The notes beneath the pieces were generated by a model that saw only the letters and a program-made list of their open reading frames with translations, was not told where the DNA came from and searched no databases. A DNA stretch of 55,763 nucleotides from the NCBI GenBank assembly GCA_020850315.1, contig JADZEY010000119.1, forward strand, positions 1 through 55,763. Direction: 5' to 3'. Within the stretch, counting starts at the first letter, position 1, and every line of letters begins with the position of its first letter. A program made the translations under genes and the position numbers. The stretch is from Armatimonadota bacterium (GTDB lineage: Bacteria; Bacteroidota; Ignavibacteria; OLB7). This document shows, piece by piece, positions 514-48,306 of the stretch.

Positions 514-2643
514 TTACTCCCTCCCCCGCTGCCAACTCACTGTCAATCTCACCATTCGGCTCAGCATTCTTCCTTCGGGAAGGGTGTCGTTGTAGGGGTG
601 TTCGGAGGGGAGGTGGCCAACCGAGGCAATGACGGCGGGGCGGGCCGCGCTGCCACGCAGGATCATCCCGTTCAACGCGTCGCGGACGTTATCGGCGCGT
701 TGGGTTGCCAAACGGCTGTTGCGGTCTGGGTCGCCAATCAGGTCGGTGTAGCCGTCAATCTGGATTTGTGCCCCTGCAGCAATCTGGCGCGCAATCTCCT
801 GCAACTGCAAGTAATGTCGCGGAAGCAATTCGGCTTGGTTAAAACTGAACCCCACAATGTTGAATTCCCTCACCTCAGTTTCCCCTTCTTCCTTGCTTTT
901 TTTCCGCTCGGTAACGCGGAACTCTCCTTCGGCTTCGGCCACCTGCCCGGTTACGTCGCGCGCCGAAAGGTGATAGATGATCGGGGTGAAATCGCGGGTA
1001 AGCCGAAGGTCCGAAAGCGACCACAGCTTCCGTTGCTGCATCATCCCTGTTGCGGTGTCGCCATCGAACCGCAGCAACACCTTGCTCCCTTGCCGAACGG
1101 TGACGATCCATTCGGCAATGGCACTATCGCTGACAAATTCAGGATAGAAAAAGACAGCGGGCGGAGTGGCAACCCGTGCCATGCGGCGGATCACCACCGG
1201 GGCATTTAAAGATTCATCGCTGAAGACAAGCTCGGCACGGCGATTTTCCTGACGGCCTGCGGCTGTTTCTTCGCTGGATGGGGATGCAGGAATCGGGGCA
1301 GCGGTGTAGGCAATCCGCGCCGAATCAATCCCCCACACGCTTGTCAGATACCGCCGGACAGCAAGCGCGCGCTGGCGGCCAAGCTGTTCAGGGTTGGCCG
1401 TTTCGTCAGCCGAGCGGGTCCCGACCACCGAAAGGTTCACACCCGGGCTCTGCTGCAACCGCTGGCCAATCACGTTCAGCAACTGCTGGTGAAGGCTCAG
1501 TGCCGTCACCCCAATCAGCGAATCAGCCGAAAACGCTGCGGCGGCGTTCCGATCCCCCACCATCTGGTATCGCTCAGGAATGACTGCCGACCCGCTATCG
1601 AAAAAGACGTAGGGGAGAATCGGGATGCTTTCGGACCAACGCGCCTCCTCCACCTCAATAATTGGGTTGTCGTACTCCTTCCCTTCGGCATCGGTGCCGC
1701 GTGCGGTGATGGTGGCGCGAAGGTAGGGGGCATCGCCAGTGGCAACTGGTGACTGTGGGGGTTGCGGCGGCTGTGGTAGCCTGGGGTCAATCGTGGGGGG
1801 GAATGATGGGGGAATTGCCCGCTTCACCAACAGCTCGTAGGTGATGCCGATGGAGGCAGATAGGGCGATGCTGCTCCAGGGGATGTCACGGCTGAAGGAG
1901 ACCAACGGGAACGTGACCCCAAACTCCGGCTGCAACGCCAAACGCTCCCCAATCGGAAGCCGCACGCTTCCCCAAACGGAGAAATCAAACTGGAACGGGT
2001 TCACATCCACCCTGTTCCCATCCACCGGACGGGCGTTGCCGTTGGTTTCGGAGAAGACGTATCCAAGCGGCTCCACGATATGCTCGGTTTGCTGCTGTCG
2101 GCTGCTGCTTAACCATGCAATGGCGGGTGCCGCCCCCAGACGCCAGTTTGGGAAGGCTTCCCACAACAAGCCAATCCGCGCACCAACGCTGAGCAATCCC
2201 AGCTCCATCCGGTCTTGCTTCACCACCTGGGTCTCCCCTCCCCCCGGCTTCCGAACTGGATAGGCAACGGGGGTTGCGCTCATGGTGGCCGAAAGGTCAC
2301 GGACAATCAGGGAGGAAGTGAGCCAGAATTGCTCCAGTGAATCGGCGGGGGTTTCCAGATAGAGGCGGCCAAACGGGCGAACACCATCGCCAACAAAGGT
2401 TCCGCAGCCATCGCCGGTGCGGTACACATCCAACGGGTCGAACAGCAAAAACTGAGGGCCGGCGGCAACACCAAAACGAAATCGCCGGAGGGAGGAATCC
2501 CCCACCGACGATTGAGGTATATCTGGATCAGCGGGCTGCGCCGCAGCGTTCAGCGCCCCACACAACAGCAGCAATGCTAACGGGAACAGCCTATTCCAGC
2601 GGCGGCATTGCCGACCAAGCCGGAACGCCTGCGGCTGGGTCAT
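514..2643 (-). CDS. Outer-membrane/envelope protein with two OmpA-like domains
   Basis: The 709-residue protein starts with a long signal peptide (hydrophobic 20-33, AAA-Q cleavage near 35). A beta-strand-rich region (about 53-275) resembles a small outer-membrane barrel; its last strands (PEFGVTFPLV...SIGITYEL) resemble the barrel protein at 37933-38778. A Pro-rich linker follows (277-300). A first OmpA-like domain (about 345-475) ends in ENRRAEL; a second (about 595-705) has GYTDLIGD with the peptidoglycan-contacting pair D634 and R649. Domain 1 lacks the canonical T-D, so only the C-terminal domain is likely to grip peptidoglycan. The start codon overlaps the upstream anti-sigma stop (ATGA at 2640-2643), so the two are translationally coupled. 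A role in anchoring the outer membrane and reporting envelope state is inference. Confidence 0.85.
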   Translation of the reverse strand: MTQPQAFRLGRQCRRWNRLFPLALLLLCGALNAAAQPADPDIPQSSVGDSSLRRFRFGVAAGPQFLLFDPLDVYRTGDGCGTFVGDGVRPFGRLYLETPADSLEQFWLTSSLIVRDLSATMSATPVAYPVRKPGGGETQVVKQDRMELGLLSVGARIGLLWEAFPNWRLGAAPAIAWLSSSRQQQTEHIVEPLGYVFSETNGNARPVDGNRVDVNPFQFDFSVWGSVRLPIGERLALQPEFGVTFPLVSFSRDIPWSSIALSASIGITYELLVKRAIPPSFPPTIDPRLPQPPQPPQSPVATGDAPYLRATITARGTDAEGKEYDNPIIEVEEARWSESIPILPYVFFDSGSAVIPERYQMVGDRNAAAAFSADSLIGVTALSLHQQLLNVIGQRLQQSPGVNLSVVGTRSADETANPEQLGRQRALAVRRYLTSVWGIDSARIAYTAAPIPASPSSEETAAGRQENRRAELVFSDESLNAPVVIRRMARVATPPAVFFYPEFVSDSAIAEWIVTVRQGSKVLLRFDGDTATGMMQQRKLWSLSDLRLTRDFTPIIYHLSARDVTGQVAEAEGEFRVTERKKSKEEGETEVREFNIVGFSFNQAELLPRHYLQLQEIARQIAAGAQIQIDGYTDLIGDPDRNSRLATQRADNVRDALNGMILRGSAARPAVIASVGHLPSEHPYNDTLPEGRMLSRMVRLTVSWQRGRE

Positions 2644-3512
2644 GGCGTTGTGGTTGATCCTTGAGATTTCTGGTTGTTGGAATCGCGGTTCGGTTTGGAG
2701 TGTTTGACCTGTACTTGCGCCGAAGGGATTGGGTTGGATGCCCCATTGAAGTTCATCACCGACGACTGGTTGTTGATTGAGTCGGTTGTTGCCGCAGCAG
2801 CGGATTGCAGCAGATCTTCGCCCTGGCGTAGTGCGGGCAGTTCGGGTAACTGTGCTGGGGTTGTTAGCGATGGAGTGGCCACCGAAGTAGAAGCAGCATC
2901 ACTTGCTGGCGTAGCCGCTGCGGCAGAATGGCGCGCCACCGAGCGCACATGCGAACGACGCGCTGCGGTGCGTTCGGATGCGATGCTTGGTGATTCGTCC
3001 GTGACAGAGGCTAAGGAGGGTGAGGTTGTTGAAGAAGGAACCGGAACAGCATCGGATTGATCCCGCAGAGTGATGGGGACTGGAACGATTGACTGAACCG
3101 GTGAAGAAGCTACCGACGGGTCGGCAAGTTGGGAATGGGTGGCATACCCCAACCCAAACCCAGCAAGTGCCACAGCCACCCCCCCCGCCGCTACCTTTGC
3201 CGAGAACGCCGCACGCACCCCCTGCCACCATGCTCCCCCACCACTACTTCCCTTCCCCCCGAGTGCGCTTGCTCCGCTGCCGGCAGTGTTGTTGGCAAGC
3301 ACAGATTCAGCTTCGGCAAAAATGGTGTTGCGAACCGAGTCGGAAATATGAAGATCGCTGGCGCTGTCGGCCAGGATTTTATCAAGCATCACGTGGGACT
3401 TCAGCCCCAGCCGCATGGAGTCGCTTGCGGCAACCGAAAGCAGGAACTGGCGTTCTTGCTCGGGGGAAAGCTCGTTATTGAAAAACGATGTGATAATGTC
3501 AGCCGTGTTCAT
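2640..3512 (-). CDS. Putative anti-sigma factor, single-pass membrane protein
   Basis: The protein has 290 residues. Its cytoplasmic N-terminus (1-75) includes FFNNELSPEQERQFL, which resembles the short helical N-termini of ECF anti-sigma factors in this phylum. A Gly/Ser linker leads to one hydrophobic segment (about 106-123, VAVALAGFGLGYA). Residues 130-290 are Ser/Thr/Pro/Ala-rich and should face the periplasm. The zinc motif HxxxCxxC of ZAS anti-sigma factors is absent. It lies 36 bp after an ECF sigma gene and overlaps the OmpA-domain gene by 4 bp. The assignment rests mainly on this order and the one-TM topology; sequence similarity alone is weak. Confidence 0.62.
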   Translation of the reverse strand: MNTADIITSFFNNELSPEQERQFLLSVAASDSMRLGLKSHVMLDKILADSASDLHISDSVRNTIFAEAESVLANNTAGSGASALGGKGSSGGGAWWQGVRAAFSAKVAAGGVAVALAGFGLGYATHSQLADPSVASSPVQSIVPVPITLRDQSDAVPVPSSTTSPSLASVTDESPSIASERTAARRSHVRSVARHSAAAATPASDAASTSVATPSLTTPAQLPELPALRQGEDLLQSAAAATTDSINNQSSVMNFNGASNPIPSAQVQVKHSKPNRDSNNQKSQGSTTTP

Positions 3513-3548
3513 CGTAGCCGTTAATGTAGATATTCGGGGTTAGGAGTA

Positions 3549-4199
3549 TCAGGGCGTTCTGTTTTCTTCAAGTTCGGAATCGCTAGTTTCTGGCTCATCT
3601 TCCGACAGTGCCAACCAGCTTGAAAGAAGTTTGCGAAGATACGCACGGGCACGGAACGCACGAGTTTTGGCTCCGGTCATGGTGCAGTTTTGCATTTCGG
3701 CAATTTCTTGGAAGGTATAGCCCATCATCGAATGCAGAACGAAGGCTTCACGTTGCACCACCGGCAACTTGCTTAATGCCCGCGTCACAAGCTCATCAAG
3801 CTCGCTATACACTTCCCCCGTCCCCGCCAGCCGCTCCCCTTCAGGGTCGAAAATGCTGAGCGGAATATGCTGGTTTTGATTTTTCCGCCGCCCCAGATGC
3901 TTCAGTGCTGTGTTGCGGGCAATCGTCAGCAGCAAGGCGCGGAAATGCTCCACGGTCTCCCCTTTTCTTGAAACGTTCACCACACGCAACCACGTCTCCT
4001 GAAAGACTTCTTCGGCATCACTCGCATCCCCCAACAAGTATTGGCAATAGAGCAGAAGCTGGCGCTCGTATCGGGAGTACAGCTCCCGAAACGCCACTTG
4101 ATCTCCGCCGCAAAAACGAGCGAACAATGCTTGGTCGTGAATGTCACGACGTGACTGTGTCCCCTCTCCGTGGTCTGGTTCCATCGGAGGTCTAGCCAT
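3549..4199 (-). CDS. RNA polymerase sigma factor, ECF subfamily
   Basis: The 216-residue protein has sigma-70 region 2 at about 25-95 (FRELYSRYERQLLLYCQYLL, then DAEEVFQETWLRV) and region 4 at about 135-192 (LPVVQREAFVLHSMMGYTFQ, EIAEM, then a recognition helix ending KTRAFRARAYLRKLL). That is the normal ECF size. The C-terminal 20 residues are acidic and variable. It is the first gene of the sigma, anti-sigma, OmpA-protein operon, so it probably controls an envelope-stress regulon and its own operon; no promoter dyad was identified upstream. The start at 4199 has no visible Shine-Dalgarno; M6 is an alternative. Confidence 0.93.
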   Translation of the reverse strand: MARPPMEPDHGEGTQSRRDIHDQALFARFCGGDQVAFRELYSRYERQLLLYCQYLLGDASDAEEVFQETWLRVVNVSRKGETVEHFRALLLTIARNTALKHLGRRKNQNQHIPLSIFDPEGERLAGTGEVYSELDELVTRALSKLPVVQREAFVLHSMMGYTFQEIAEMQNCTMTGAKTRAFRARAYLRKLLSSWLALSEDEPETSDSELEENRTP

Positions 4200-34896: not shown

Positions 34897-36330
34897 ATGC
34901 GGCACGCCATTCTTTCTTCCCTTCTTGCAATGCTCGGCACGGCTTGCGCACAAGGGCAAAGCTACGAACCGATAAAAGCATTCCCAGCACTCTATTTCCA
35001 GAACCCTGTTGAAATTGTTCATGCTGGTGATGAATCGAACAGGCTGTTTGTTCTTGAGCAATCGGGCCTTATTCGGGTATTTCCCAATAATGCCAGCGTG
35101 GCAAAAGCTGACACGTTTATGAATATCAAAAGCAAAGTTCTTTCGGGCGGTGAACTTGGCCTGCTGGGCATTGCATTTCATCCCGATTACAAAAACAATG
35201 GCTATTTCTATTTGGATTATACCGCCGACAACCCACGCAGAACAATTATTGCCCGCTACCAAGTTGACCCCAACAACGCCAACAAAGGGGATGCTGCCAG
35301 CGAACAAATTTTGCTGGAAATAAATCAGCCATACACCAACCACAACGGCGGTAAAATTGCCTTTGGGCCCGACGGATACCTGTACATTTCAATGGGTGAT
35401 GGAGGCAGCGGCGGCGACCCAGAAAATCGTGCACAAAACCGTAGCTCCCTGCTTGGAAAAATGCTCCGTATTGATGTGAATAACAGGGCTAACGGAAAAA
35501 ACTATGCTATCCCCCCCAACAACCCATTTGTTGGCAATCAGAATGGATATTCAGAAGAAATCTGGGCGTGGGGGTTACGGAACGTTTGGAAATTCAGCTT
35601 CGATCCAGAAACAGGTTGGCTTTGGGCCGCCGATGTTGGGCAAGGAAAGTGGGAAGAAATCAGCTTGTTAGAAAACGGAAAAAATTATGGCTGGAGAATT
35701 ATGGAAGGGAAACACTGCTACAACCCATCCACAAACTGCGACACGGCTGGATTAGTGCAACCAATTTGGGAGTATTCGCACAGCCAGGGAGTATCAGTCA
35801 CTGGTGGGTATGTTTATCGTGGCACAGCATTGCCGGAATTAGCAGGAAAATATATTTATGGGGATTATGGTAGCGGGCGGATATGGGCATTGGAATATGA
35901 TGCCGAATCCGCTCCAATCAACACACAAATTTTGCAGAATCAACCCTCCGTTAGTTCCTTTGGGGTTGACCAGAATAATGAGATAATGTTCAGCAGCTTC
36001 AATGGCAACATCTACCGAATCCGCCAAGTTGGCGGCAGCAATGCCGATAATTCTTCCGGTGATGCAGCGTTCGCACTCCATTCCCCCAAACCAAATCCTG
36101 CAAGCGGCCGCGTTGTTCTCCCCTTCTCTTTGGGGAACACCGCTTCCATCTCCATCGCGCTGTTCGACGCTGCCGGGCGGGAAGTGCAACGAATTTTTGA
36201 CGGAACCCGCGAAGCCGGGAACCATGAAATTGCTTTCGATTCCAGCACGCTTCCCGCCGGAACATATTTCTGCCGATTAACCAGCGGAACAATGTCGGCA
36301 ACACAAGATTTGATACTTCTTCATCGGTAA
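34897..36330 (+). CDS. Secreted PQQ-type glucose/sorbosone dehydrogenase with T9SS sorting domain (copy 1)
   Basis: The 477-residue protein has a signal peptide (1-21) and a six-bladed quinoprotein propeller (about 25-380): GLLGIAFHPDYKNNGYFYLD, TNHNGGKIAFGPDGYLYISM with catalytic H149, GDGGSGGDPENRAQN, the EEIWAWGLRNVWKFSFDP Arg region (R228), and GGYVYRGTALPELAGKYIYG. Residues about 393-477 are a Por/T9SS sorting domain (SPKPNPASGRVVLPFSLGN ... LPAGTYFCRL). It is predicted to be exported and surface-anchored or released, oxidising an aldose with PQQ or a related function. It looks less GC-rich than its flanks. A close paralogue follows 75 bp downstream. Confidence 0.9.
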   Translation: MRHAILSSLLAMLGTACAQGQSYEPIKAFPALYFQNPVEIVHAGDESNRLFVLEQSGLIRVFPNNASVAKADTFMNIKSKVLSGGELGLLGIAFHPDYKNNGYFYLDYTADNPRRTIIARYQVDPNNANKGDAASEQILLEINQPYTNHNGGKIAFGPDGYLYISMGDGGSGGDPENRAQNRSSLLGKMLRIDVNNRANGKNYAIPPNNPFVGNQNGYSEEIWAWGLRNVWKFSFDPETGWLWAADVGQGKWEEISLLENGKNYGWRIMEGKHCYNPSTNCDTAGLVQPIWEYSHSQGVSVTGGYVYRGTALPELAGKYIYGDYGSGRIWALEYDAESAPINTQILQNQPSVSSFGVDQNNEIMFSSFNGNIYRIRQVGGSNADNSSGDAAFALHSPKPNPASGRVVLPFSLGNTASISIALFDAAGREVQRIFDGTREAGNHEIAFDSSTLPAGTYFCRLTSGTMSATQDLILLHR

Positions 36331-36356
36331 CATTTCCCAGTGTGCATCCCTCTTGT

Positions 36357-36392
36357 TGTGGTAAGGCGTGGTAGGTTCCATGCCTTACCACA
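36357..36392 (+). terminator. Terminator-like hairpin between the paralogous dehydrogenase genes
   Basis: gtggtaaggcgtgg (36358-36371) pairs with ccatgccttaccac (36378-36391) around the loop taggtt, then cattttcg. The U-tract is short, so it may attenuate rather than fully stop transcription into copy 2, which starts 14 bp later. Confidence 0.7.
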
Positions 36393-36405
36393 TTTTCGTT
36401 GTAGC

Positions 36406-37851
36406 ATGAAACCGAAGCATCCCTTACTGCCGATACTCCTTGTTCTTGTTCTGTTTATCGCCGCCGCCAAGCTGAACGCGCAATATCAGTACGAAGCTGC
36501 CCCTGCATTCTCCGACAGCTTAGTGTTCCAAACCCCAGTTGACATAGTTAGCGCGCGCGACGGTAGCAATCGGTTGTTTGTGGTTGAGCAAGGGGGCATT
36601 ATTCGGGCTGTTCAAAATGATCCAAACGCAGCCGTTGCCGACACGTTTTTGAATATCAAACGGAAGGTGAGTGTTGGAAGCGAGACCGGACTGCTTGGGC
36701 TGGCATTTCACCCTAAGTACCAGCAGAACGGATACCTTTATGTGAACTACACAGCTGCTAACCCATTGCGAACCATTGTCGCCCGCTATCATGTTGACCC
36801 TAACAATCCCAAACAGTGCGACACCGCAAGCGAAGTTATTCTGCTGGAAATTCCGCAGCCGTATAAAAACAACAAAGCAGGTAAAATTGCTTTTGGCCCT
36901 GATGGCACTTTTTTTATAGCCGTCGGCGATGGCGGCGGCACAGGCGACCCCGAGCGTCGCGCCCAAAATTTAACACTGCTTCTTGGCAAAGTTCTCCGCA
37001 TTGATGTGAACCGCACTTCTAACGGGAAGAATTATGCAATCCCTGCCGACAATCCATTTTTTGGCAACTCGAACGGTTATGCCGAAGAAATTTGGGCCTG
37101 GGGTTTTCGGAATCCGTGGCGATTTAGTTTTGACCCCATCACGTACCAGCTATGGCTGGGCGATGTTGGGCTTTATTCTTGGGAAGAAATCAACATTGTG
37201 GAAGGGGGGAAAAATTATGGTTGGAATATCATGGAAGGGACTCGATGTTTTAATTCTATTCCCTGTGATACTTCCAATCTTACTAAACCAGTTTGGACAT
37301 ACCCGCGCGACGTAGGGCGCACAGTTATTGGCGGATATGTGTACCGTGGCACAGCAATGCCAGAATTGCAGGGGAACTATATTTATGGAGATTTCACCAG
37401 CGGCAGTTTTTGGGCTTTGAATCCATCCTACGCCATGACCGGCAAGCAATTATTCCAACAGCGCACGCTCTCCCTCTCCTCGTTTGGGGTGGATGACAAC
37501 CATGAATTGCTGCTGACTTCATACAATGGCCGTGTGTACCGCCTTCGTCAATCACCGTTCAGCAATGCCGGCAATTCCGCTGGCAATGCAGTTTTTGGGC
37601 TTCAACACCCCAGGCCAAATCCTGCGGCCAACGGGCAAATTCTTATTCCTTTTTCGCTGGGGAGCCCAGCATTTATCTCCATCGCGCTGTTCGATGGCAT
37701 TGGGCGCGAAGTAGCCCGAATCTTTGACGGAACCCGCGAAGCCGGACATCACGAAATTGCGTTCGATACCAGCATCCTTCCCGTCGGAATGTATTTCTGC
37801 AGATTGAGCAGTGGCGCACACACCGACATCCAAACGGTAATGGTGCAGTAA
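36406..37851 (+). CDS. Secreted PQQ-dehydrogenase-like protein with T9SS sorting domain (copy 2, catalytic His lost)
   Basis: The 481-residue protein has a signal peptide (1-25) and the same layout as copy 1: propeller about 30-395, Por sorting domain from about 397 (HPRPNPAANGQILIPFSLGS ... LPVGMYFCRLSSG). The segment aligned with TNHNGG of copy 1 reads KNNKAGK: N156 replaces the catalytic base His and an Ala replaces one Gly. GDGGGTGDPERRAQN and EEIWAWGFRNPWRFSFDP are kept, so the fold and much of the cofactor pocket remain. It may be a binding protein or pseudoenzyme. The frame is open upstream to 36340, but that part lies in the hairpin. Confidence 0.88.
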   Translation: MKPKHPLLPILLVLVLFIAAAKLNAQYQYEAAPAFSDSLVFQTPVDIVSARDGSNRLFVVEQGGIIRAVQNDPNAAVADTFLNIKRKVSVGSETGLLGLAFHPKYQQNGYLYVNYTAANPLRTIVARYHVDPNNPKQCDTASEVILLEIPQPYKNNKAGKIAFGPDGTFFIAVGDGGGTGDPERRAQNLTLLLGKVLRIDVNRTSNGKNYAIPADNPFFGNSNGYAEEIWAWGFRNPWRFSFDPITYQLWLGDVGLYSWEEINIVEGGKNYGWNIMEGTRCFNSIPCDTSNLTKPVWTYPRDVGRTVIGGYVYRGTAMPELQGNYIYGDFTSGSFWALNPSYAMTGKQLFQQRTLSLSSFGVDDNHELLLTSYNGRVYRLRQSPFSNAGNSAGNAVFGLQHPRPNPAANGQILIPFSLGSPAFISIALFDGIGREVARIFDGTREAGHHEIAFDTSILPVGMYFCRLSSGAHTDIQTVMVQ

Positions 37852-37932: not shown

Positions 37933-38778
37933 TTATTCGCCCAGCGGAGAACTGCGGGGCGCATCCAGAGTAAATATCAGGGCGATGCCAGCGTGAAGCT
38001 CCGTTTGGCTCCAATCAGTATCGGCCACGGGGGAGGTAAAACCGAGCATTGTTCCAACTTCTGGGCGTAGCGCGAAATTCGGGGAGAGGTTAAAATCGAA
38101 CCCAATTGCAGCTTTTAGCCCAGCTTGAAATCCGCTGGTTTCCTGAAGGTCGCCGCTGCTGTTGTTCCGTTCGGTTGATCCATCGCCGTAGCGCGCGCCA
38201 GTTGGCGCAGCAACCTCTTCGTGATGAGTGAATGTTTTCCCCATCAAAAATCCAAGCCGCGCCCCCACGGCAAACACAAGCGGCGTGGAACGGCTAACCT
38301 GATAGGTGGCCATTGGCTCCACACGAAGCTCCGAAAGGCTTGTCTCAACCACGTATTTGCTGGTGACAGGCAGCACCATCCCCATGGGGTTCATTGCTGG
38401 GCCGATGACTTCGGTGGCTTCGAACGTGGTGCTAACCGAAGCAATCCCAACCCGGGCTTGCCACCCAATGTTGGCACTGAAATCGCTGTTTCCCATCGCT
38501 GGGCGCATTCCCACAATCGCGCTTGCGGCAAAACCGTTGCCGGAACCACCATCGAACAAGGCGGTATCCCCCTTGCAGTTGTTGATGCCCGGAAGCGTAG
38601 CAAACGAGCCAGACGCGTTCCCTATGATTACCCCACCGTATCCGCCAAACTGCAACAAGGGAACCGGAAGAACTTCGCGCGCGCCTTGCGGCTGGGCAAC
38701 CAGAACAACAGTGGAAAGCAGCAGCAGTGAAAGCAGCTTGCCACACTGCGCTGTAAATGTGATGTAACGTTCGTGCAT
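37933..38778 (-). CDS. Outer-membrane beta-barrel protein (porin-like)
   Basis: The 281-residue form starts MHERYITFTAQCGKLLSLLL, giving a signal peptide (hydrophobic 14-26, VAQP cleavage near 28); the frame is open to 38868. The mature protein alternates short amphipathic strands and Gly/Asn-rich loops and ends in strands ALRPEVGTMLGFTSPVADTD and LHAGIALIFTL, like small eight- to ten-strand barrels of this phylum. A single Cys occurs in a loop (NNCKGD). The last strands resemble the barrel part of the double OmpA protein at 514-2643. It lies just downstream of the giant secreted protein gene on the same strand (159 bp gap) and may be co-expressed. Confidence 0.75.
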   Translation of the reverse strand: MHERYITFTAQCGKLLSLLLLSTVVLVAQPQGAREVLPVPLLQFGGYGGVIIGNASGSFATLPGINNCKGDTALFDGGSGNGFAASAIVGMRPAMGNSDFSANIGWQARVGIASVSTTFEATEVIGPAMNPMGMVLPVTSKYVVETSLSELRVEPMATYQVSRSTPLVFAVGARLGFLMGKTFTHHEEVAAPTGARYGDGSTERNNSSGDLQETSGFQAGLKAAIGFDFNLSPNFALRPEVGTMLGFTSPVADTDWSQTELHAGIALIFTLDAPRSSPLGE

Positions 38779-38937: not shown

Positions 38938-41900
38938 TTACTTGACCAGCACCAGCGGCTGGCGAAGCGTTGTTTGGCCGTAGTGAAGCTCGCAGAAATA
39001 GAGGCCGGCCGGAAGATTGTTGGCATCGAAGAAGACGGAGTAGCCACCAACCGGAAGCTGGCTATTCACCAACGTCCGGACTGGAACGCCACGCAGATCG
39101 GTGACAACAAGCTGGATGTTGCCTGGTTGATCCAAGCTGAACTCAATGGTCGCGCTTCCGCTGAACGGATTTGGATAGAGTGCTTTCAGTGCTGCCCCTT
39201 CATCCAGCAGGACAAAGCGATCGCCATCCACACGGCAAATGCCATCGGTCAGGAAGCTGCCGTTCTGCCGATTGACCGTTACCTGGCGGTTTGGCGGCGT
39301 TGTCACGGTTGCCGAGTCAATCGTGATAATGGTGGAAAGGGTGTCGCCAAGCAGTGCCAAGCACTCCAACCGTGCAATCTCACCGGTGGCCGGGAAGGTT
39401 CCGCCGTTTAGGTCAATAACCATCACCCTGTCGTTTCCAACAATGCGGCTATCGGCAATGGTAGCGGTCATTCCGGGAAGCTGCGACAGCGCACGCAACG
39501 GGGCCAACAGTGTGTAGCGGTAGCGCAGATAGATCCGCATGGTGCTGATTCCGGCGGCCGTCAAATTGTCCGATCCGGTAATCAGCAGCGGTATCTGCAC
39601 GTTTTGGTTCACTCTTCCAATCACGTTGTTTTGCGCCCCAACGGTCAGCTGTGCAATCACGATATCCTCGCCAATCGCTTCGCCGGCAATGGCAAAGGTA
39701 AGCTGCTGGCCACAGGGCCCATCCACGGTGATTGTTCCGGTTCCCGCCAGCTTCCCTTTTGCTTGCGGCGCGTATTCAACCTCAATTTCCAGCTCGCCAC
39801 CCGGCGGGATTGTTGCTGGGAATTGTGTTGGCTTGGTGATGGTCACATCACCCAAGCCGCCTAAGTCAAGCGATTTCACCGTTCTCTCCACCGTTCCGGT
39901 GTTCCGCAGGCGGATTGTTCCGGTTCCGTTGGTCTTGATGTTCACCTGCCCAAAATCTACCCCGGTTGCGCTAAGCTGTGCCGAGGGCTGCACCCCTTGC
40001 CCCATAACCTGCACTGTTGTGGTTCGGCCACATGGACCCCATTCGATATTTAACTCACCGTTGAACGTCCCCTGGGCCGATGGTGTGAAGGTCATCGTGA
40101 AGGTTCGGCTTGCGCCTGGCTCCAGCACAATCGGGTAATTCTCCTGCATGAAGAAGGCAGGGTTGCCGGTAAAGAAAGCGCGGTTGATAGTGTCGGCAAC
40201 TTGGCCGTCGTTGGTGATTGTCACCTGGGCGGTTGTGTCGCCATCGCACAGATAGACTGTGCCGAAATTGACTGTTGGTGCCGAGGCCGCCAGCGAGGGC
40301 GAAATCCGTTCGCCGGTAAGCCCCACCGTTGCGCGAAGGTTGCACGGCGCGCCCACCGCAGCCAGCGTTGCGGGGAAGCTGCCATCGGTGGATGGAGCAA
40401 ACCGAACAGTGATTGTTTTGGGAATGCCTGGGTAAATGATGATCGGCAGTTGGTCATCAATTCCGTAGGCGGTTGCTGTGCCAAAATCAATGGAGGTGAT
40501 CGTGTCGGGGACGCTGCCGTCGTTGCTGAACGTGACCGGCAGACGGACGGTGTCGTCGCAGGCCAGAACCCGTGGGAACGGAAGCGACGCAACCGATGGA
40601 GTAAGGGTTGTGGTGTCCTTGCGGGCGCGAAGGTCAATGGCCACTGTTGGCGCGTTGACGGCGGTTGTGGTCAGATCCACTTGGGCCACCCGTGCGCCAT
40701 TCCCTTGCGGGGTGAAGCGAACCGTGAAGGAAAGGCTTCCCCCTGGCGGAATAGTCTGCCCGGCTGGGGAAGCACCAGTGATTGCGTAATCGCCAGCATG
40801 GGTTCCGCTAATTCCGGCGGTCTTAATTTGCACTGGTTCATCCCCCACACTTTTCAGCACAATCACCGAATCCACATAGGCTGGCGCGTTGCAGAGGTAG
40901 CTGGAATACTCCAGCGAGCGGCTAAGGCTAAGCGAAGCCCCCGCCCCTTTGAACGCCCGAATAGTGATATCAATCGGGGTAAGGCATGGGCTACCAACAA
41001 TCCGCATGGTGCGTTCGGTAAGGCCGTCGTTGCTTGGGGTGAACCGGACGCAGATGGTGTCGGCTTTGCCTGGCTGGATTGCCACCGGGAACTGTGCTGG
41101 GTCAATCACCTGGAATCCGGGCCCGTTGAAGGTGACGGCACTGATCGTCAGCGGGCGTATCCCGTCGTTCTGCACAATCACGCAAGTGTCACGGGTGGAT
41201 TCGGTGGATTTCAGCACCCCCAGATCCAACGTGGTTCCCGGCACACGCAGCTTCGCGCTGTCGCGGATTGCCGTCACCGGAATTTCCCACACCTTTTTGT
41301 TGTTGGCATCGGTGTAGATGATGAGCTTCCCGGTATAAACCCCTGGCGTGGGTGTTTTCACCACAAGCACAACCTGGTTGTTCAGCCCTGGCAAATAGTT
41401 GAAGGGCATTTTGTTCGGCTTCAACACCTCAATGCCAAATCCGGTGGCCTTGATGCTATCAATCAGGAAGGCATTGTTCCCAAGATTCTCCACGGAAATT
41501 GCCGTGTCGGTCTCGTTATCACAGCTGATGATGTTCAGTGTGTCAACCCCAAATTTTGCGCGCGAGCGAAGTGCCTCGCCAGCGTTATGGCCGTAGGCAT
41601 CATCCCACTCGAACCCGTAAGCAATCACGCTTAGTGGTTCTTCGGCTTCTATCACGTGCTGCCGGGGAATCAGCTTCAGAATTCCGGAGACATACTGCCC
41701 GTCGCTGCTTGGTTTATTGAAGATTGCTGGGTGAATTTTGTTCCCATCCAACAGCACCGAATCTTTCACCCCAACCGGAACCGTGACCAGCGCGTAGTGT
41801 TCCCAAACATGATTACCAGGGGGATGAACTATTGGTAGCGATGGCCGATTAGCCGGATCGGGGGTGATCCACTGCACAGCGCGGGCAAACCGGTTTACCG

Positions 41901-43110
41901 GAAGAAGCTGCGTCATCATCGGCGCGCCGTAGGGGATGTCGGAAGTATCGGGGTTTGGTAGGTTGGCATCACTGTAGATCGTGTCGTTCTTGCAGGCACC
42001 GCCACTGTACCCAAACTGCGTGGCAATCACCGGCAGCGACGATTCGATTTTCATCGGTTGCCGCATCCGCAAATCCACCCACGCACCACGATTCAGGATG
42101 GTATCAGCGCTTCCGTCAGGTTTCTTCAGTCGTACGCCGTTCGTGTCAATGGTGGTTCCGTTTTTGGTGGCAACAATCCGCACCAGCGATGTATCCTGGC
42201 GTGCAAACGGAGCCGAGTAAAACAGGCTTCCGGCTTGGTTATCGCTAAGCTGGGCTTCCATTATTGGCTTCCCGTACCACGTCAGTTCGGGGAACGGAAT
42301 CATTGGCGGTGGAGCCGGCGGCGGCGGTGGCTCTGGGGCAATTGGACGTGCCGACGGAGTGTTGGTGCGCCCGTAGCCGATAACACCGATTGGTTTGTTG
42401 GACTGGATAGTGGAGCCGGTCTGGTCCGAAAGATATCCTTCCTGGTTCGACTGCGTGCGGAAGCTGATGGCCTGATACTTGTTCAGCGTGAAGGTGTAGG
42501 GAACACCCGCCGGGTGGTTGGGCCCGGCAAGATCGATCCGCCAGGTGTCCACCCGTGGGACGACAGTAACAACGGTGTTATCCTGCGAAGCAACCACCGT
42601 GAAGCCACCGCGGTCGGCATACTGGCTGTAGCCAGCGTAGGTGCTGACGGTGAAGAGGGTATCGTAGGCCACAACCGGCATCACCCCATACGTCTCCATT
42701 CTGTTCAGCGTGTCGAACCGCAGCTGCACCGTGATCGGTTGGTCGCTGGTGATAACCAACACCCGAGCGTTCACCGAGTCGTTGAACAGTTGGTTGGTTG
42801 GCTGCATGAACGCCGACAACGAAGGGAGCGGATAGTTCGGCTTAAATACCTGCCGGTCACCTGCATTTACCTCCAAACCATTTGGAAAGTAGTTGGTGGT
42901 CCCCCAGCGCACATTCAGCTTGGTTTTGCGGGAGCACATCACCTCCACACTGTAGGAAGCAATGTTCTTTTGGGCTTCGGTGTAATGGATAAACGGCGGA
43001 AGCACCACTAGATATTCCTTCCCCGTTGGCGTTTGTGCGTTGCTGCCAATCGGAATCATTGCCACCAGAGCAAAAAGCCAGAGTGAAGCAAGAAGGCGAA
43101 GTCGAGTCAT
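38938..43110 (-). CDS. Giant secreted protein: IgGFc-binding-like, six ASH repeats, cohesin-like domain, T9SS sorting domain (copy 1)
   Basis: The chosen start (MTRLRLLASLWLFALVAMIP, signal peptide 1-26) gives 1390 residues; the frame is open to 43218, but a TAnnTTTGY box lies inside that extension. Domains in order: an IgGFc-binding-like region (about 30-400) with YLVVLPPFIHY, GGFTVVASQDNTVVTVVP and IQSNKPIGVIGYGRTN; a linker; six ASH (choice-of-anchor D) repeats of about 105 residues (about 515-1140); a cohesin-like domain (about 1140-1290, IPLLITGSDNLTAAGISTMR); and a Por sorting domain (last 85 residues, ALYPNPFSGSATIEFSL). Several ASH repeats carry one Cys early (YLCDGD) and one later (WGPCGR). 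It should be displayed on or released from the surface; the ligand is unknown. Confidence 0.87.
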   Translation of the reverse strand: MTRLRLLASLWLFALVAMIPIGSNAQTPTGKEYLVVLPPFIHYTEAQKNIASYSVEVMCSRKTKLNVRWGTTNYFPNGLEVNAGDRQVFKPNYPLPSLSAFMQPTNQLFNDSVNARVLVITSDQPITVQLRFDTLNRMETYGVMPVVAYDTLFTVSTYAGYSQYADRGGFTVVASQDNTVVTVVPRVDTWRIDLAGPNHPAGVPYTFTLNKYQAISFRTQSNQEGYLSDQTGSTIQSNKPIGVIGYGRTNTPSARPIAPEPPPPPAPPPMIPFPELTWYGKPIMEAQLSDNQAGSLFYSAPFARQDTSLVRIVATKNGTTIDTNGVRLKKPDGSADTILNRGAWVDLRMRQPMKIESSLPVIATQFGYSGGACKNDTIYSDANLPNPDTSDIPYGAPMMTQLLPVNRFARAVQWITPDPANRPSLPIVHPPGNHVWEHYALVTVPVGVKDSVLLDGNKIHPAIFNKPSSDGQYVSGILKLIPRQHVIEAEEPLSVIAYGFEWDDAYGHNAGEALRSRAKFGVDTLNIISCDNETDTAISVENLGNNAFLIDSIKATGFGIEVLKPNKMPFNYLPGLNNQVVLVVKTPTPGVYTGKLIIYTDANNKKVWEIPVTAIRDSAKLRVPGTTLDLGVLKSTESTRDTCVIVQNDGIRPLTISAVTFNGPGFQVIDPAQFPVAIQPGKADTICVRFTPSNDGLTERTMRIVGSPCLTPIDITIRAFKGAGASLSLSRSLEYSSYLCNAPAYVDSVIVLKSVGDEPVQIKTAGISGTHAGDYAITGASPAGQTIPPGGSLSFTVRFTPQGNGARVAQVDLTTTAVNAPTVAIDLRARKDTTTLTPSVASLPFPRVLACDDTVRLPVTFSNDGSVPDTITSIDFGTATAYGIDDQLPIIIYPGIPKTITVRFAPSTDGSFPATLAAVGAPCNLRATVGLTGERISPSLAASAPTVNFGTVYLCDGDTTAQVTITNDGQVADTINRAFFTGNPAFFMQENYPIVLEPGASRTFTMTFTPSAQGTFNGELNIEWGPCGRTTTVQVMGQGVQPSAQLSATGVDFGQVNIKTNGTGTIRLRNTGTVERTVKSLDLGGLGDVTITKPTQFPATIPPGGELEIEVEYAPQAKGKLAGTGTITVDGPCGQQLTFAIAGEAIGEDIVIAQLTVGAQNNVIGRVNQNVQIPLLITGSDNLTAAGISTMRIYLRYRYTLLAPLRALSQLPGMTATIADSRIVGNDRVMVIDLNGGTFPATGEIARLECLALLGDTLSTIITIDSATVTTPPNRQVTVNRQNGSFLTDGICRVDGDRFVLLDEGAALKALYPNPFSGSATIEFSLDQPGNIQLVVTDLRGVPVRTLVNSQLPVGGYSVFFDANNLPAGLYFCELHYGQTTLRQPLVLVK

Positions 43111-43145
43111 TGTTGACCTTACGTTGATATTGCTACAGTTTTGTC

Positions 43146-43154
43146 GCAAAGATA
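43146..43154 (-). promoter_or_regulatory. -7 promoter element for giant secreted protein copy 1
   Basis: TATCTTTGC on the minus strand matches TAnnTTTGY exactly and lies 35 bp before the start at 43110, inside the open extension of the frame. It supports the downstream start that follows with a good signal peptide. Confidence 0.5.
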
Positions 43155-43271
43155 TACCCTGCGGAAGGATTAGGAAGGGGGAAAACTGACTATTGAAGAT
43201 AGAGGCCAGAACCACCAAACCGCCAGAAGGTTACAGCCCGCCGGTTGCTTTGGGAGATTCCGGACATTGAA

Positions 43272-46200
43272 TTAACGAACAATCACCAACCGGGCAATTC
43301 GCTCTTCCCCGCCGAAGCGCACCCGCAGGTAGTAGGTTCCGGTTGCAATCCCCTGGATTGGAAGCGGCAGTTGCTGCGCCCCCGCCGGAAGATCGCTATC
43401 GAAGGGGCGAGCAATCTCATCCGTTACTGGGTTCAGCACCGATACCACCACACGCCCTGGGCTTGGAAGCTCAAGCCCCAGAGTGACTTCGTGATTGGCC
43501 GGGTTTGGAGTAAGGCTGGCGATACGGAACAGCGGGGAAAACTCCAACAAGCGATTGCCAATAGGTCCACAGAAGTCTATGATTTTCAGCGACCCATTGG
43601 TTACTGTGACCTCCCCATCAACACTATCAAGCGGGCTTACAATTCGCGCTGTGGCAACCGGGTTGGCAATCCGCAGCGGGGTCTGCTCCACACCGCCCAA
43701 CATCACCCGCCCCGCAAGGCTACCCAACACCCCCGACTTCGATAACGCCCCAGAATAGCGAAACATCACCACCCGCTCCCCCCCGCTTACCGAGTCGAAC
43801 CGTGCAGTTAGCACCCCAGGAAGCTGCGTGGTGAAGGATTCAGGAAAAAACAACCCTGCATCCCACCGCAGCTCTCCTTCCACCGTCACCACTGCGTCGG
43901 AAGGGGTGTTGACGGAATACCGAAGCGGCAATATTCCCCAATCCCCCACCTGCGCGGTTGTATCTGGGAAGGTGAGGCGCAGCTGCAGCCAAAGGTCACG
44001 CCGCCATTCGCCACGAACGGTAAACGTATCCACAGCAACGCATGGTGAGTCGGCAACGGCAACTCCGTTTGTTGTAAAACTTGCGGCGGCGGAGGATAGA
44101 TACTCCACCTGAATAGGAATCTGTTGACCAGCATCAACCTTGATAGGGAACTGCGGCGACACCACACGCAACCCGGGAATCGAGGGGTAGAAGGAAATGG
44201 AGCGAACCACCACCGGGACCCCGCCGCTGTTGCTAAGCAACGCCCCACCCACCGATAGCGAATCGTTCCGAACGCGCCCAAGATCAATATCACTATCCAC
44301 CGCAATGGATTGCGGAAGCATTGCCCCGCGCAGATGGAGCGTTTGCACCAGGCCGCATGGCTCGGCACGCAACTCAATGTTCCCGGCAAACTCCCCAATC
44401 CCGCTTGGCTGGAAGGTGACGGTGATTGGCGCGCTTTGCTCACCCGGCCCCAACGTCAACCGCGTTGGCACGGCTCCAACAGCAAACAAACCGCTGGTAA
44501 TCGTTAGGCTGGTGATGGTGTCACGAACCGCTCCGGTGTTGACGATGCGGAAGGTTTTGGTAAATGGAGCCTGGCACTGGGCGATTGCCCCGAACTCTAG
44601 AGTGTCGGTGCTGAAACCGATTCCCGCGCTGCGCTGCTCGCCCCACAACGGGATTGTTTTCACAAGGCCGCATGGCTCTGCGTACAGCCGAAGCGTGTCG
44701 GAATGGATGCCCGGCCCCGTTGGCTGGAAGGTCACGGTCACCGTTGCTGATTCCCCAACGCCAATGCTTGGCGCACTAAACCCCGACAGCATAAAGCTGC
44801 TGCCGGAAACCGTGGCCGAATCGAACTGGATGGGAAGAGTTCCAGTGCAAAAGATGCGGAGCGTCCGGGCTGTTGGCGGGTCGCAACCGCTTAGTGTCCC
44901 CAGGTTTAGCCATGGATCGGAAAGGCTTATGCCAACCGAATCCTTCCGTCCCGACAGCAGGACATCAACCACAGCACTGCCCGCAGCACTACTGTACACC
45001 TGTGCCGTTGCCATACGGTTTCCAACCCCTGTGGGAACAAACCGCATTGGCACAAGCAGTGTGGAGTCAGGGAGAATAGTTGTGGGATTGAACACCGCAT
45101 CAAAGATGAAATCGCTAGCATACGCCCCTTGCACCCGAACACTATCCACCCGCAATACCCCCTGCCCGGTGTTGCGGATGCTAACCATAAACGGCTGCGA
45201 TGATGGCGTTGAGCACGATAGCGGAGGAATATCTTGGGCATACGCCTCGATACGCGCCCCCCGCAACCGCTCGCCACGCAACGTAAGGGGAATCGGCGCA
45301 AGGCAAGGACCGATGGTAAACGTTCCAACCCCATTGTAGATGCCTGAGCTTCCCGGTGCAAAACGGATGGTTAGCCGCAACGTGTCGCCGGGCTGCACCG
45401 TTGCCGGAAGCGCGGGATCGGCAAGGGTGAAGGCTCCGGTGAACTCTGCTTTTGTCAAGGTCGCCGGGCCGGTTCCGGTGTTGACCAACATCACCTGCTC
45501 CGTTTTTGGCGTTCCCCCAGCATCCACCGTTGGGAAGGCCAGCGATGGTAGTGATAGCTGCACCCCCATGCTGTCGCGGTCAATGTGAATCGGGATTTGC
45601 AGCGGGCGGCCTGCGCTGGTTTTGGTGGTCAGCGTCAGCGTGCCATCGTAGGCCCCGTAGCGGGGAAGCGGAATCCGCAAACGCATCCAGCGGTTGGCAA
45701 ACTTTGCCATGAAGAAGGGGTAGCTTCCGGGCGTTACTACCTCGCCATTTATTCCACTGAACTCTCCGCTTATCACCTCCAACTCCCGCCCGCCAATGTT
45801 TTGCAGTTGGATAATGGTATCCAGATAATCATTGCAGGTGCGGGCCGTCAGATCATCGCTCCGGAGCGCGTCACGCACCAGAGTTCCTGCTGGGCTAGAG
45901 TAGGCATCGTAATGGCTGTAGCCAAAGGCTTGGGCGTTCACCGGAACGGACGATGTGATCTGGTGAACCCCGGCAAGGATGCTCACAATGGCGGTGACAT
46001 ACTTGCCATCGCCATGCGGAAGCCCGTAGCTGTCGAAGTCAATCGGCTTTCCATCCAGCCGGACGCTGGTGCGCCCAACTTTTGGGGCAGTCACCATCAG
46101 GTAGTGAGTGAATGGAACGAAGGCGGTATCGGGTTCGGGCCCCCCCTTGGGGTTGGAACGCAAGAAATAGCGGGGGAGCAGATATGGGGTCATCCACTGG

Positions 46201-47231
46201 TAGTTGGTGCTGAACAGGTCAATCGGGTTCAGCAACATCATGGAAGGATCGCTGTTGGGGCGGGCGGAATCGGCAATAAAATGGGTGGTGAACTGCGCTG
46301 CCATAATCGGCAAACTCCCCTCGATAATCACCGGCTCCTCGAACATAAACGTGTGTGCCTCACCCGATTTCAGCGTGGCAATCGGCAGGCCGTTGCGGCG
46401 CACCACGGTTCCGTTCTGCGAAGCCACCACTTTGTAGAATCCACGCGATTGCCCGGGCAACGGGCGTGCATAAAATCGGCGGCCCCAATCCACCACTGGG
46501 ATCATCTGCTCCATCATGGCGTTTTGCGCCCCGCCAACCCCTTCCGGCAAAAACGCGCCAGCGTGCCCGGAATAGACCACCACAGGTTTATCGCTGGTCA
46601 CTCGCGAGCCAGTGATATCAGTTTCCTCCAGCACTTTCGGTGTCACCTGATAGACCTCACCACGGTTCAGCGTTACGGCGTAGGTGAACGATGGAAGATT
46701 CCCGTTGGCAGTCACCACCGAAGGGGTGATGCGGACTTGGGTGTTATCCTCGGTAGCAACCACCGCAAACACACCGCCCAAGTTTGTTGCGCTTGGTGCC
46801 GATAGGGTGTAGTATTCATGGCCATAATCATAAATGGGGAATGCCATAAAATTATCGGTGACAAAATCGCCATCGCTGGTAAGGTTCACCGTCACCAAGC
46901 CACTGCTGGTGATCTGCAACGACCGTTTTGACTTCCCCTCCCCCGGCAACAGCATGATTCTGGTGCGGGAAATCAGGTAATCCCAGACTTCCCCCGGCAT
47001 CAGCGTCCGCGTTTCCGATTGGCCATTCTCGGTTTGCAGCACCGTCACGGTGCATTGCCCAACCGCCACAATGCTTGCCCGCAGGTAGTGGTTGCTGGCA
47101 GGGTAGGTTGCTGGCAGCGTCACAAAAAAGCGGCTGCCGCTGCTGGCGGTGTTGGTGGTTTGGGCGGTCCCCAGGAAAAGCGTGGCAAACAGAAGGGCAA
47201 TGCAAACGGGCAACAGCCGAATCACGTGCAT
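43272..47231 (-). CDS. Giant secreted protein: IgGFc-binding-like, ASH repeats, cohesin-like domain, T9SS sorting domain (copy 2)
   Basis: Starting at MHVIRLLPVCIALLFATLFL (signal peptide 1-24) gives 1319 residues; the frame is open to 47570 without meaningful sequence. The layout repeats that of copy 1: IgGFc-like region (about 25-400: FFVTLPATYPASNHYLRASI, GGVFAVVATEDNTQVRITPS, VTSDKPVVVYSGHAGAF); about six ASH repeats, many with paired Cys (PLSCST, IGPCLA, SGCDPP, AEPCGL twice, IAQCQA); a cohesin-like segment (DAVVTVEGELRWDAGLFFPE ... VVMFRYSGALSKSGVLGSLA); and a Por-type tail (SLTPNPANHEVTLGLELPSP to VIVR). It lies 161 bp upstream of copy 1, same strand. Overall identity between copies looks low, so the duplication is old. 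Confidence 0.87.
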   Translation of the reverse strand: MHVIRLLPVCIALLFATLFLGTAQTTNTASSGSRFFVTLPATYPASNHYLRASIVAVGQCTVTVLQTENGQSETRTLMPGEVWDYLISRTRIMLLPGEGKSKRSLQITSSGLVTVNLTSDGDFVTDNFMAFPIYDYGHEYYTLSAPSATNLGGVFAVVATEDNTQVRITPSVVTANGNLPSFTYAVTLNRGEVYQVTPKVLEETDITGSRVTSDKPVVVYSGHAGAFLPEGVGGAQNAMMEQMIPVVDWGRRFYARPLPGQSRGFYKVVASQNGTVVRRNGLPIATLKSGEAHTFMFEEPVIIEGSLPIMAAQFTTHFIADSARPNSDPSMMLLNPIDLFSTNYQWMTPYLLPRYFLRSNPKGGPEPDTAFVPFTHYLMVTAPKVGRTSVRLDGKPIDFDSYGLPHGDGKYVTAIVSILAGVHQITSSVPVNAQAFGYSHYDAYSSPAGTLVRDALRSDDLTARTCNDYLDTIIQLQNIGGRELEVISGEFSGINGEVVTPGSYPFFMAKFANRWMRLRIPLPRYGAYDGTLTLTTKTSAGRPLQIPIHIDRDSMGVQLSLPSLAFPTVDAGGTPKTEQVMLVNTGTGPATLTKAEFTGAFTLADPALPATVQPGDTLRLTIRFAPGSSGIYNGVGTFTIGPCLAPIPLTLRGERLRGARIEAYAQDIPPLSCSTPSSQPFMVSIRNTGQGVLRVDSVRVQGAYASDFIFDAVFNPTTILPDSTLLVPMRFVPTGVGNRMATAQVYSSAAGSAVVDVLLSGRKDSVGISLSDPWLNLGTLSGCDPPTARTLRIFCTGTLPIQFDSATVSGSSFMLSGFSAPSIGVGESATVTVTFQPTGPGIHSDTLRLYAEPCGLVKTIPLWGEQRSAGIGFSTDTLEFGAIAQCQAPFTKTFRIVNTGAVRDTITSLTITSGLFAVGAVPTRLTLGPGEQSAPITVTFQPSGIGEFAGNIELRAEPCGLVQTLHLRGAMLPQSIAVDSDIDLGRVRNDSLSVGGALLSNSGGVPVVVRSISFYPSIPGLRVVSPQFPIKVDAGQQIPIQVEYLSSAAASFTTNGVAVADSPCVAVDTFTVRGEWRRDLWLQLRLTFPDTTAQVGDWGILPLRYSVNTPSDAVVTVEGELRWDAGLFFPESFTTQLPGVLTARFDSVSGGERVVMFRYSGALSKSGVLGSLAGRVMLGGVEQTPLRIANPVATARIVSPLDSVDGEVTVTNGSLKIIDFCGPIGNRLLEFSPLFRIASLTPNPANHEVTLGLELPSPGRVVVSVLNPVTDEIARPFDSDLPAGAQQLPLPIQGIATGTYYLRVRFGGEERIARLVIVR

Positions 47232-47670: not shown

Positions 47671-48306
47671 ATGAATCGTTTGTTCTTGCTTGCACTGCTC
47701 ACGCTCTTATTCTTCTGCATCAACACGCCCACAACATCGGCACAGGAGGCGGAGGAGAGCGAATGGTACGCTTCGGTTGGCGGCGGCACGGTGATCCCGA
47801 TTGCACCGCTAAAATTTGATGGCTTCCACATCACCGGATTTTCCTTGAATGGCTCACTGTTCGGTGGGGTGAACAAGTGGCTTTCGGCAGGGTTGTTTGT
47901 TGGCTACATGCAATTCCCCCACACTGGCAAAGCGTTGTCGTTCAAGGATCGTCTAGTACGCTGCATTGATGGCGGCACAAAATCGTTCTTCTCCTTCGGC
48001 ATGACCTTGCGTGGCGAACTCTACCAGCTGGCCCACTACCGTCTGTATGCTTCGGTGGATGCTGGGCTGACGGAGATGTCGCGCAGCAAAGCAACCTACA
48101 GCATGAACGGCATGGCCGAAGGAATGGCAATGTATGCCCCGGCAGCATCGGTGACAAATGAGTATGTGGCAGGGGTTATTGGGATTGAGTACCGGATGGA
48201 CTACCAGATGAGCGCAGTAATTGAAGCGGGCTACGGGCTGGGTTCCGATGGAGTCATCAGCAACCAGTTTGTGCCGGTGCGGGTGTTGGGGAAAGTGCGG
48301 TTGTAG
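47671..48306 (+). CDS. Outer-membrane beta-barrel protein, small
   Basis: The 211-residue protein has a signal peptide (MNRLFLLALLTLLFFCINTP to SAQ, cleavage near 25). The remainder shows alternating strands: WYASVGGGTVIPIAP, FSLNGSLFGGVNKWLSAGLF, KSFFSFGMTLRGELYQLAHY, AGVIGIEYRMDY, SAVIEAGYGLG and a final VRVLGKVRL. This fits an eight-stranded outer-membrane barrel. The start at 47671 has GGAGG and GGAG upstream, one of the few visible Shine-Dalgarno sites here. It is divergent from the giant secreted protein genes and ends at a bidirectional terminator. Confidence 0.75.
   Translation: MNRLFLLALLTLLFFCINTPTTSAQEAEESEWYASVGGGTVIPIAPLKFDGFHITGFSLNGSLFGGVNKWLSAGLFVGYMQFPHTGKALSFKDRLVRCIDGGTKSFFSFGMTLRGELYQLAHYRLYASVDAGLTEMSRSKATYSMNGMAEGMAMYAPAASVTNEYVAGVIGIEYRMDYQMSAVIEAGYGLGSDGVISNQFVPVRVLGKVRL

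Follow-up and report, generated by a model that had tools for sequence, protein, structure and literature searches.

A giant protein of the type IX secretion system and its neighbouring outer-membrane barrel as a candidate two-gene surface unit in Ignavibacteria

Two adjacent giant genes of contig JADZEY010000119.1 (assembly GCA_020850315.1, class Ignavibacteria; the window below is this whole stretch of 55,763 nucleotides, nt) raise the question of what surface system they form, and with which partners. The original prediction ascribed to both proteins one four-part plan, with an IgGFc-like head (family PF17517), an array of ASH modules, a cohesin-like module and a tail, that is, a sorting domain of the type IX secretion system (T9SS), and proposed an uncharacterised surface adhesion or docking system. 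Comparison with other genomes of the class retains a part of this proposal: one of the giants, copy 1, and the barrel gene directly downstream of it constitute a conserved and apparently undescribed unit, while docking via dockerins is not supported. Judging by sequence comparisons, this pair belongs to a widespread type of two-gene unit, in which a T9SS surface giant is accompanied by a barrel of its own, probably as its anchor or shuttle.

Conservation of the giant–barrel pair

Copy 1 (38938..43110, minus strand, 1390 amino acids, aa) and its tandem paralogue copy 2 (43272..47231, minus strand, 1319 aa) are followed on the same strand by the companion outer-membrane barrel gene of copy 1 (37933..38778, 281 aa, PF13568 with E-value 2.3e-8, over cut-off), the gaps in the co-directional cluster of copy 2, copy 1 and this barrel being 161 and 159 nt. 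A second small barrel gene (47671..48306, plus strand, 211 aa, PF13505 with E-value 7.6e-8, also over cut-off) is divergent from copy 2 and shows no relation to the 37933 barrel by phmmer. Genes here and below are simple choices of open reading frames (ORFs) with exact starts not proven, and the genomes are assemblies, many of them metagenome-assembled, the giants and barrels being known here from sequence alone.

Orthologues of copy 1, 38–91% identical, occur in three genera, and copy 1 is adjacent to a 37933-type barrel in four genomes: the host genome (G000), G001 from the same genus (JAEUSP010000078.1, “Chlorobiota bacterium”), and G002 (JAFDZV010000008.1) and G003 (JAGWAZ010000059.1) from other genera. 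The whole neighbourhood is kept in G001. The two genes are still neighbours in G002 and G003 (loci L054 and L053) at 36–40% identity, the remaining genes in the flanks retrieved from these two genomes lacking counterparts in the window. The best matches of the barrel are these four neighbours of copy 1; the fifth match, in G004, is 194 nt away from the end of its contig, and the copy 1 of G004 is likewise truncated by a contig end. For copy 2, an orthologue in the same gene setting is confined to the genus, and the 47671 barrel is present in two of the 61 genomes of the class scanned for barrel relatives, G000 and G001, both of this genus. Since copy 1 and its downstream barrel are the only genes here that stay together across genera, they form the conserved unit, and the frame of two barrels was rejected as such a unit. 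Thus, both barrels that had been predicted to flank the pair are real, and one of them is tied to copy 1, while the symmetry is lost, as the 47671 gene is divergent and genus-specific, the latter being true for copy 2 as well. Likewise, the expected co-occurrence in related genomes extends over three genera for copy 1 and its barrel, and is limited to the genus for copy 2 and the 47671 barrel.

A profile of four orthologues of the 37933 barrel (A10, the family being called b1-type below) has relatives in 25 of the 61 genomes, mostly as the N-terminal part of 650–790-aa open frames, and OmpA domains are present on four complete examples of these long frames. We then considered 40 further b1-type barrels, taken by score order with the already-seen ones left out. 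Directly upstream of 30 of them, on the same strand and with a gap of –19 to 289 nt, is a T9SS-tailed ORF, the loci being spread across many families, compared to a chance expectation of approximately 1–1.5% per barrel, a rough estimate from the tail density of one genome, that of the host. The upstream ORFs mostly span 1000–1800 aa; a cohesin-like module is present in 21 of them, and ASH modules in the majority. An independent model assigns type A tails to 28 of 31 giant ends, and type B to none. Two more b1-type barrels (L078, L104) have upstream a giant ORF with no recognised tail. A barrel gene also follows the giants of another PF17517 orthogroup (C136 and relatives) in the majority of the genomes sampled; at the C136 locus of the host genome (L015, G000:C136:328-3199) the PF17517–cohesin–T9SS giant is directly followed by a series of three outer-membrane barrel genes related to each other. 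A further link between head and barrel is their fusion: G013, G031 and G040 each encode an IgGFc region together with a b1-type barrel in a single open frame.

The members of the pairs also diverge together. For 34 pairs, the distance matrix of the giant ends correlates with that of the barrels at r 0.71, whereas shuffling of partners within genomes, which preserves the species history, yields a mean of 0.31, with none of 2000 shuffles reaching the observed value. With the copy 1 lineage removed, the Spearman coefficient is 0.43 compared to 0.19 in shuffles (0 of 1000 reaching it).

Domains of the giants and their relatives

Both frames are open throughout from ATG to stop, longer TTG/GTG starts also being possible. 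The two proteins are 27% identical over the full length (E-value 2e-104), and in a tree of 30 relatives copy 2 is the sister of the copy 1 clade (support 95/84). In copy 1, a signal peptide is followed by the PF17517 region (41614..42687, minus strand, residues 142–499, E-value 5.6e-36), six ASH, or choice-of-anchor D, modules (39679..41553, residues 520–1144), the cohesin-like module (39211..39669, residues ~1148–1300) and the T9SS type A sorting domain (38941..39180). The same order is seen in copy 2, also on the minus strand, with the PF17517 region at 45921..46856 (residues 126–437, E-value 5.5e-58), six ASH modules at 44007..45842 (residues 464–1075), the cohesin-like module at 43545..43997 (residues ~1079–1229; alignments A4, A6 and A8) and the T9SS tail at 43275..43508. 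The choice-of-anchor D/ASH model NF012200 matches copy 1 with E-value 1.2e-51 and copy 2 with 1e-34, the count of six per copy coming from a profile built on the copy 1 repeats. Profiles, including the suggested search with PF17517 and ASH models that produced strong matches in both copies, alignment and structure prediction hence confirm both giants and their four-part plan.

The tail of copy 1 exceeds the curated cut-offs of both TIGR04183 (29 bits) and PF18962 (28.9 bits). That of copy 2 falls short of these cut-offs (PF18962 at 13.9 bits, E-value 0.067) and aligns with the copy 1 tail in A6, the PNP motif being invariant. The host genome encodes SprA (SprA_N, PF14349, E-value 7.3e-48) and at least 150 T9SS tails, in agreement with the assignment of both giants to T9SS cargo. 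Type A tails are reported to be handled by PorV and covalently attached to A-LPS, LPS being lipopolysaccharide (PMC12618676, PMC9143113).

The cohesin-like module was initially called by eye. The Pfam cohesin model PF00963 matches neither copy 1 nor copy 2 alone, and is matched weakly by six of 30 modules of the family (best E-value 1.8e-6). A profile of the 30 modules compared with the PDB has solved cohesins as the best matches, with 1g1k on top (3.9e-6). When the profile is restricted to the copy 1/2 clade, 1g1k again comes first, at 0.041, and this narrower profile aligns with one of 21 other modules at 1.9e-9. The AlphaFold2 model of copy 1 residues 1143–1390 has pLDDT (predicted local distance difference test) 87.6 and pTM (predicted template modelling score) 0.80, and Foldseek places cohesins first (1g1k, E-value 1.2e-7; 2xdh, 2.2e-7), the template modelling scores by target length being 0.59–0.71 among the cohesins listed, with the highest, 0.71, for 6kgc. 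The family profiles, AlphaFold2 and Foldseek thus bear the call out, and the structure check that could have overturned it agrees with a cohesin-like fold.

In the host genome, the A4 profile identifies 31 such modules (that of copy 2, itself included in the profile, at 1.8e-29), 17 of them directly adjoining a recognised T9SS tail 16–64 nt away, a number favoured by the linker being part of the profile. The cohesin fold is a common unit before T9SS tails in this group, found without dockerins, and is not evidence for a dockerin system. The copy 1 module ends in a Cys..(Gly)Gly.Arg linker, and in the linker that joins module and tail one Cys is invariant and one Arg nearly so across 30 aligned pre-tail modules (Cys1292 and Arg1298 in copy 1). 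Many modules have a second Cys, a possible partner of the linker one; copies 1 and 2 do not. Compared to known cohesins (CipC 1g1k, CipA, Archaeoglobus 2xdh, NagJ X82), the fold is the same and the sequence similarity weak, but the module of the giants is single, stands beside a T9SS tail, has the Cys and Arg of the linker, and comes from a genome without dockerins. The IgSF domain before the tail of the RgpB gingipain is a beta-sandwich proposed to be a spacer or insulator (PMC4804311); the giants likewise have a beta-sandwich directly before the tail, although cohesin-like rather than of the IgSF immunoglobulin fold. The module probably binds no dockerin, and is perhaps a spacer like that of RgpB or a part of a barrel-binding base.

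The label of the head is less informative. The name IgGFc_binding derives from a human mucus protein, and for these giants it carries no information on antibody binding, none being expected. Sequence comparison with the PDB finds no solved structure related to PF17517, the AlphaFold2 model of the region is poor (pLDDT 64.8) and Foldseek finds no confident match for it, so no fold is claimed. PF17517 genes were surveyed in the host genome and 40 relatives, the broad IgGFc alignment being too divergent to serve in a collection scan. They are present in 17 of these 41 genomes, in 1 to 23 copies per genome, with 19, many of them clustered, in the host genome. The paralogues examined have the general plan in common and vary in the middle parts, and copies 1 and 2 are just two of the 19, so the pair is not the unusual one it was taken for. 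One cluster (L011, G000:C114:17.6-28.6 kb) is a tandem of four PF17517 genes, one of which (574 aa) has no middle repeats. The best-conserved PF17517 gene (L009:3109-5595, on contig C22 of the host genome) has orthologues of 815–841 aa elsewhere; its product and the orthologues have no T9SS tail, and their C-terminal end looks like an outer-membrane barrel, which in G013, G031 and G040 is recognised by the profile of the copy 1 companion barrel. Databases name the same domains, PF17517, choice-of-anchor D and T9SS type A, on single proteins. We found no literature on IgGFc combined with T9SS or choice-of-anchor D, and no functional description of the combination of these three domains or of its barrel partner.

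Putative role of the barrel and competing explanations

The cluster of both giant genes and the 37933 barrel gene would produce T9SS-exported giants along with an outer-membrane barrel dedicated to them. Export of the giants would proceed first via Sec, given the signal peptide, and then via T9SS, given the type A tail. The six ASH modules would form a rigid stalk outside the cell, keeping off the membrane the PF17517 head, the likely outward binding part with a presumed adhesive role. The base, comprised of the cohesin-like module and the tail, would stay beside the membrane, where the companion barrel would hold the giant or hand it over during export, the cohesin–tail unit being the candidate contact site. 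In the many relatives with the barrel–OmpA fusion, the complex would be secured to the cell wall by the OmpA domains.

A generalisation of this scheme to the whole class is possible, if somewhat doubtful: the small barrels, often fused to OmpA, would be dedicated shuttles or anchors for type A giants, and recognise the cohesin-like module with the tail, so that the “cohesin” would dock to a barrel instead of a dockerin. In the host genome, a b1-type barrel is directly downstream of five of 15 modules of the Cys..Gly-Gly.Arg linker subtype and of none of 13 modules of the CysGlyLeu..Arg subtype (one-sided Fisher test by hand, ~0.03, with three ambiguous cases left out and some training overlap). 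Given this difference between subtypes, the barrel may recognise the base of the giant and not the head, which is suggestive only.

Several points weigh against a dedicated barrel. Adjacency alone cannot separate anchoring from co-regulation, and the co-divergence could arise from physical linkage and joint duplication alone, showing persistence of the pair and not binding. At least eight giants of the same cohesin subtype in the host genome have no barrel directly downstream. With the PorV route available for type A tails, the giants have no obvious need for a barrel of their own. Finally, in the single-frame fusions of G013, G031 and G040 the IgGFc region is N-terminal to the barrel and could remain periplasmic. 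One adjacent barrel per giant was rejected as a rule, as most modules of the same subtype in the host genome have no downstream barrel.

The barrel might be an ordinary co-transcribed structural porin, the giants being anchored by the usual type A route (PorV/PorU, linkage to LPS) and the pairing reflecting shared regulation. Such an explanation would agree with type A tails usually following PorV (PMC12618676) and with the many type-b giants of the host genome that have no adjacent barrel, but this barrel family stands behind T9SS giants at 30 of 40 loci across many families, and its co-divergence with the giant ends exceeds what loose co-regulation predicts; we consider it rather unlikely. 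In another explanation the barrel is no permanent anchor, but a shuttle dedicated to its partner, standing in for PorV while the partner is exported. Cognate PorP/SprF-like barrels of Flavobacterium johnsoniae are indeed required for secretion of their partners (PMC12618676), and the giants tend to keep their own barrels, as the co-divergence indicates. Still, the barrel does not match the PorP/SprF profile, and the fused OmpA domains suggest a fixed link to the cell wall, a better fit to an anchor, leaving a shuttle alone unlikely.

The idea that the giants act as scaffoldins, bringing partners into a surface complex through dockerins, implied by the originally suggested docking, is very improbable and was rejected as a general explanation, since, despite the cohesin fold and cohesin-like sequence of the module and the only dockerin of G028 residing in a protein ~2 kb from an IgGFc–cohesin gene, no dockerin over cut-off was found in the host and four other genomes of the family, dockerins are not enriched in genomes with PF17517 (4 of 17, compared to 9 of 24 without it, in the 41 genomes surveyed), and each giant has, unlike a scaffoldin, a single cohesin-like module, beside the tail. 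The dockerin-bearing protein of G028 (L038:692-2083, at about 321 kb on contig C1, genome of 2.2 Mb; 463 aa) seemingly also has a cohesin-like region.

Comparison with known T9SS surface systems and neighbouring genes

A dedicated barrel for the giant has precedents in SprF–SprB of F. johnsoniae and PorE–PorP–PG1035 of Porphyromonas gingivalis, where a T9SS surface protein has its own outer-membrane barrel, some such systems including also an OmpA-type peptidoglycan-binding partner (PMC9143113). As in these systems, the barrel gene adjoins the substrate gene, and at one locus of the C136 orthogroup (L043:513-2999) an IgGFc giant and barrel are preceded by a PD40-propeller and OmpA protein sharing the make-up of PorE (PMC9143113). 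Proteins of ~830–870 aa are in a PorE-like position at four further loci (L034, L035, L047, L050), as judged only by their C-terminal ends. The differences are that the tails of the giants are of type A, not type B, that the barrel is not recognised as PorP/SprF, and that barrel and OmpA are often one protein. The 37933 barrel has only generic matches, to PF13568 and PF13505, and none to an NCBIfam or PorP/SprF model; a whole-genome search with PF11751 gave no match, the controls giving none either. Membership in the PorP/SprF family was hence rejected: with a barrel lacking a PorP/SprF match and partners with type A tails, the unit is not filed as a member of these systems, and its best reading, by analogy, is that it would work like SprB–SprF or PorE–PorP.

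In the current view, a single general shuttle, PorV, serves T9SS cargo with type A tails. A barrel kept with type A giants by gene order and co-divergence across many families points to another route or anchor, specific to them; if the barrels do serve these giants, the rule of PorV as the sole shuttle for type A cargo would be broken, and the set of giants with barrels supplies named pairs for testing the second route. The barrel–OmpA genes, annotated as generic outer-membrane proteins, gain a likely role.

Two more regions of the window are of note. One (514-4199, minus strand) has a gene of a 709-aa barrel and OmpA protein, weakly related to the companion barrel; the gene adjoins those of a putative membrane regulator and a sigma-factor-like protein and has no T9SS giant as a neighbour. 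In the other (34897-37851), two tandem genes pointing towards the copy 1 barrel gene, and thus convergent with it, encode beta-propeller proteins resembling sugar dehydrogenases, each of which ends in a T9SS type A tail.

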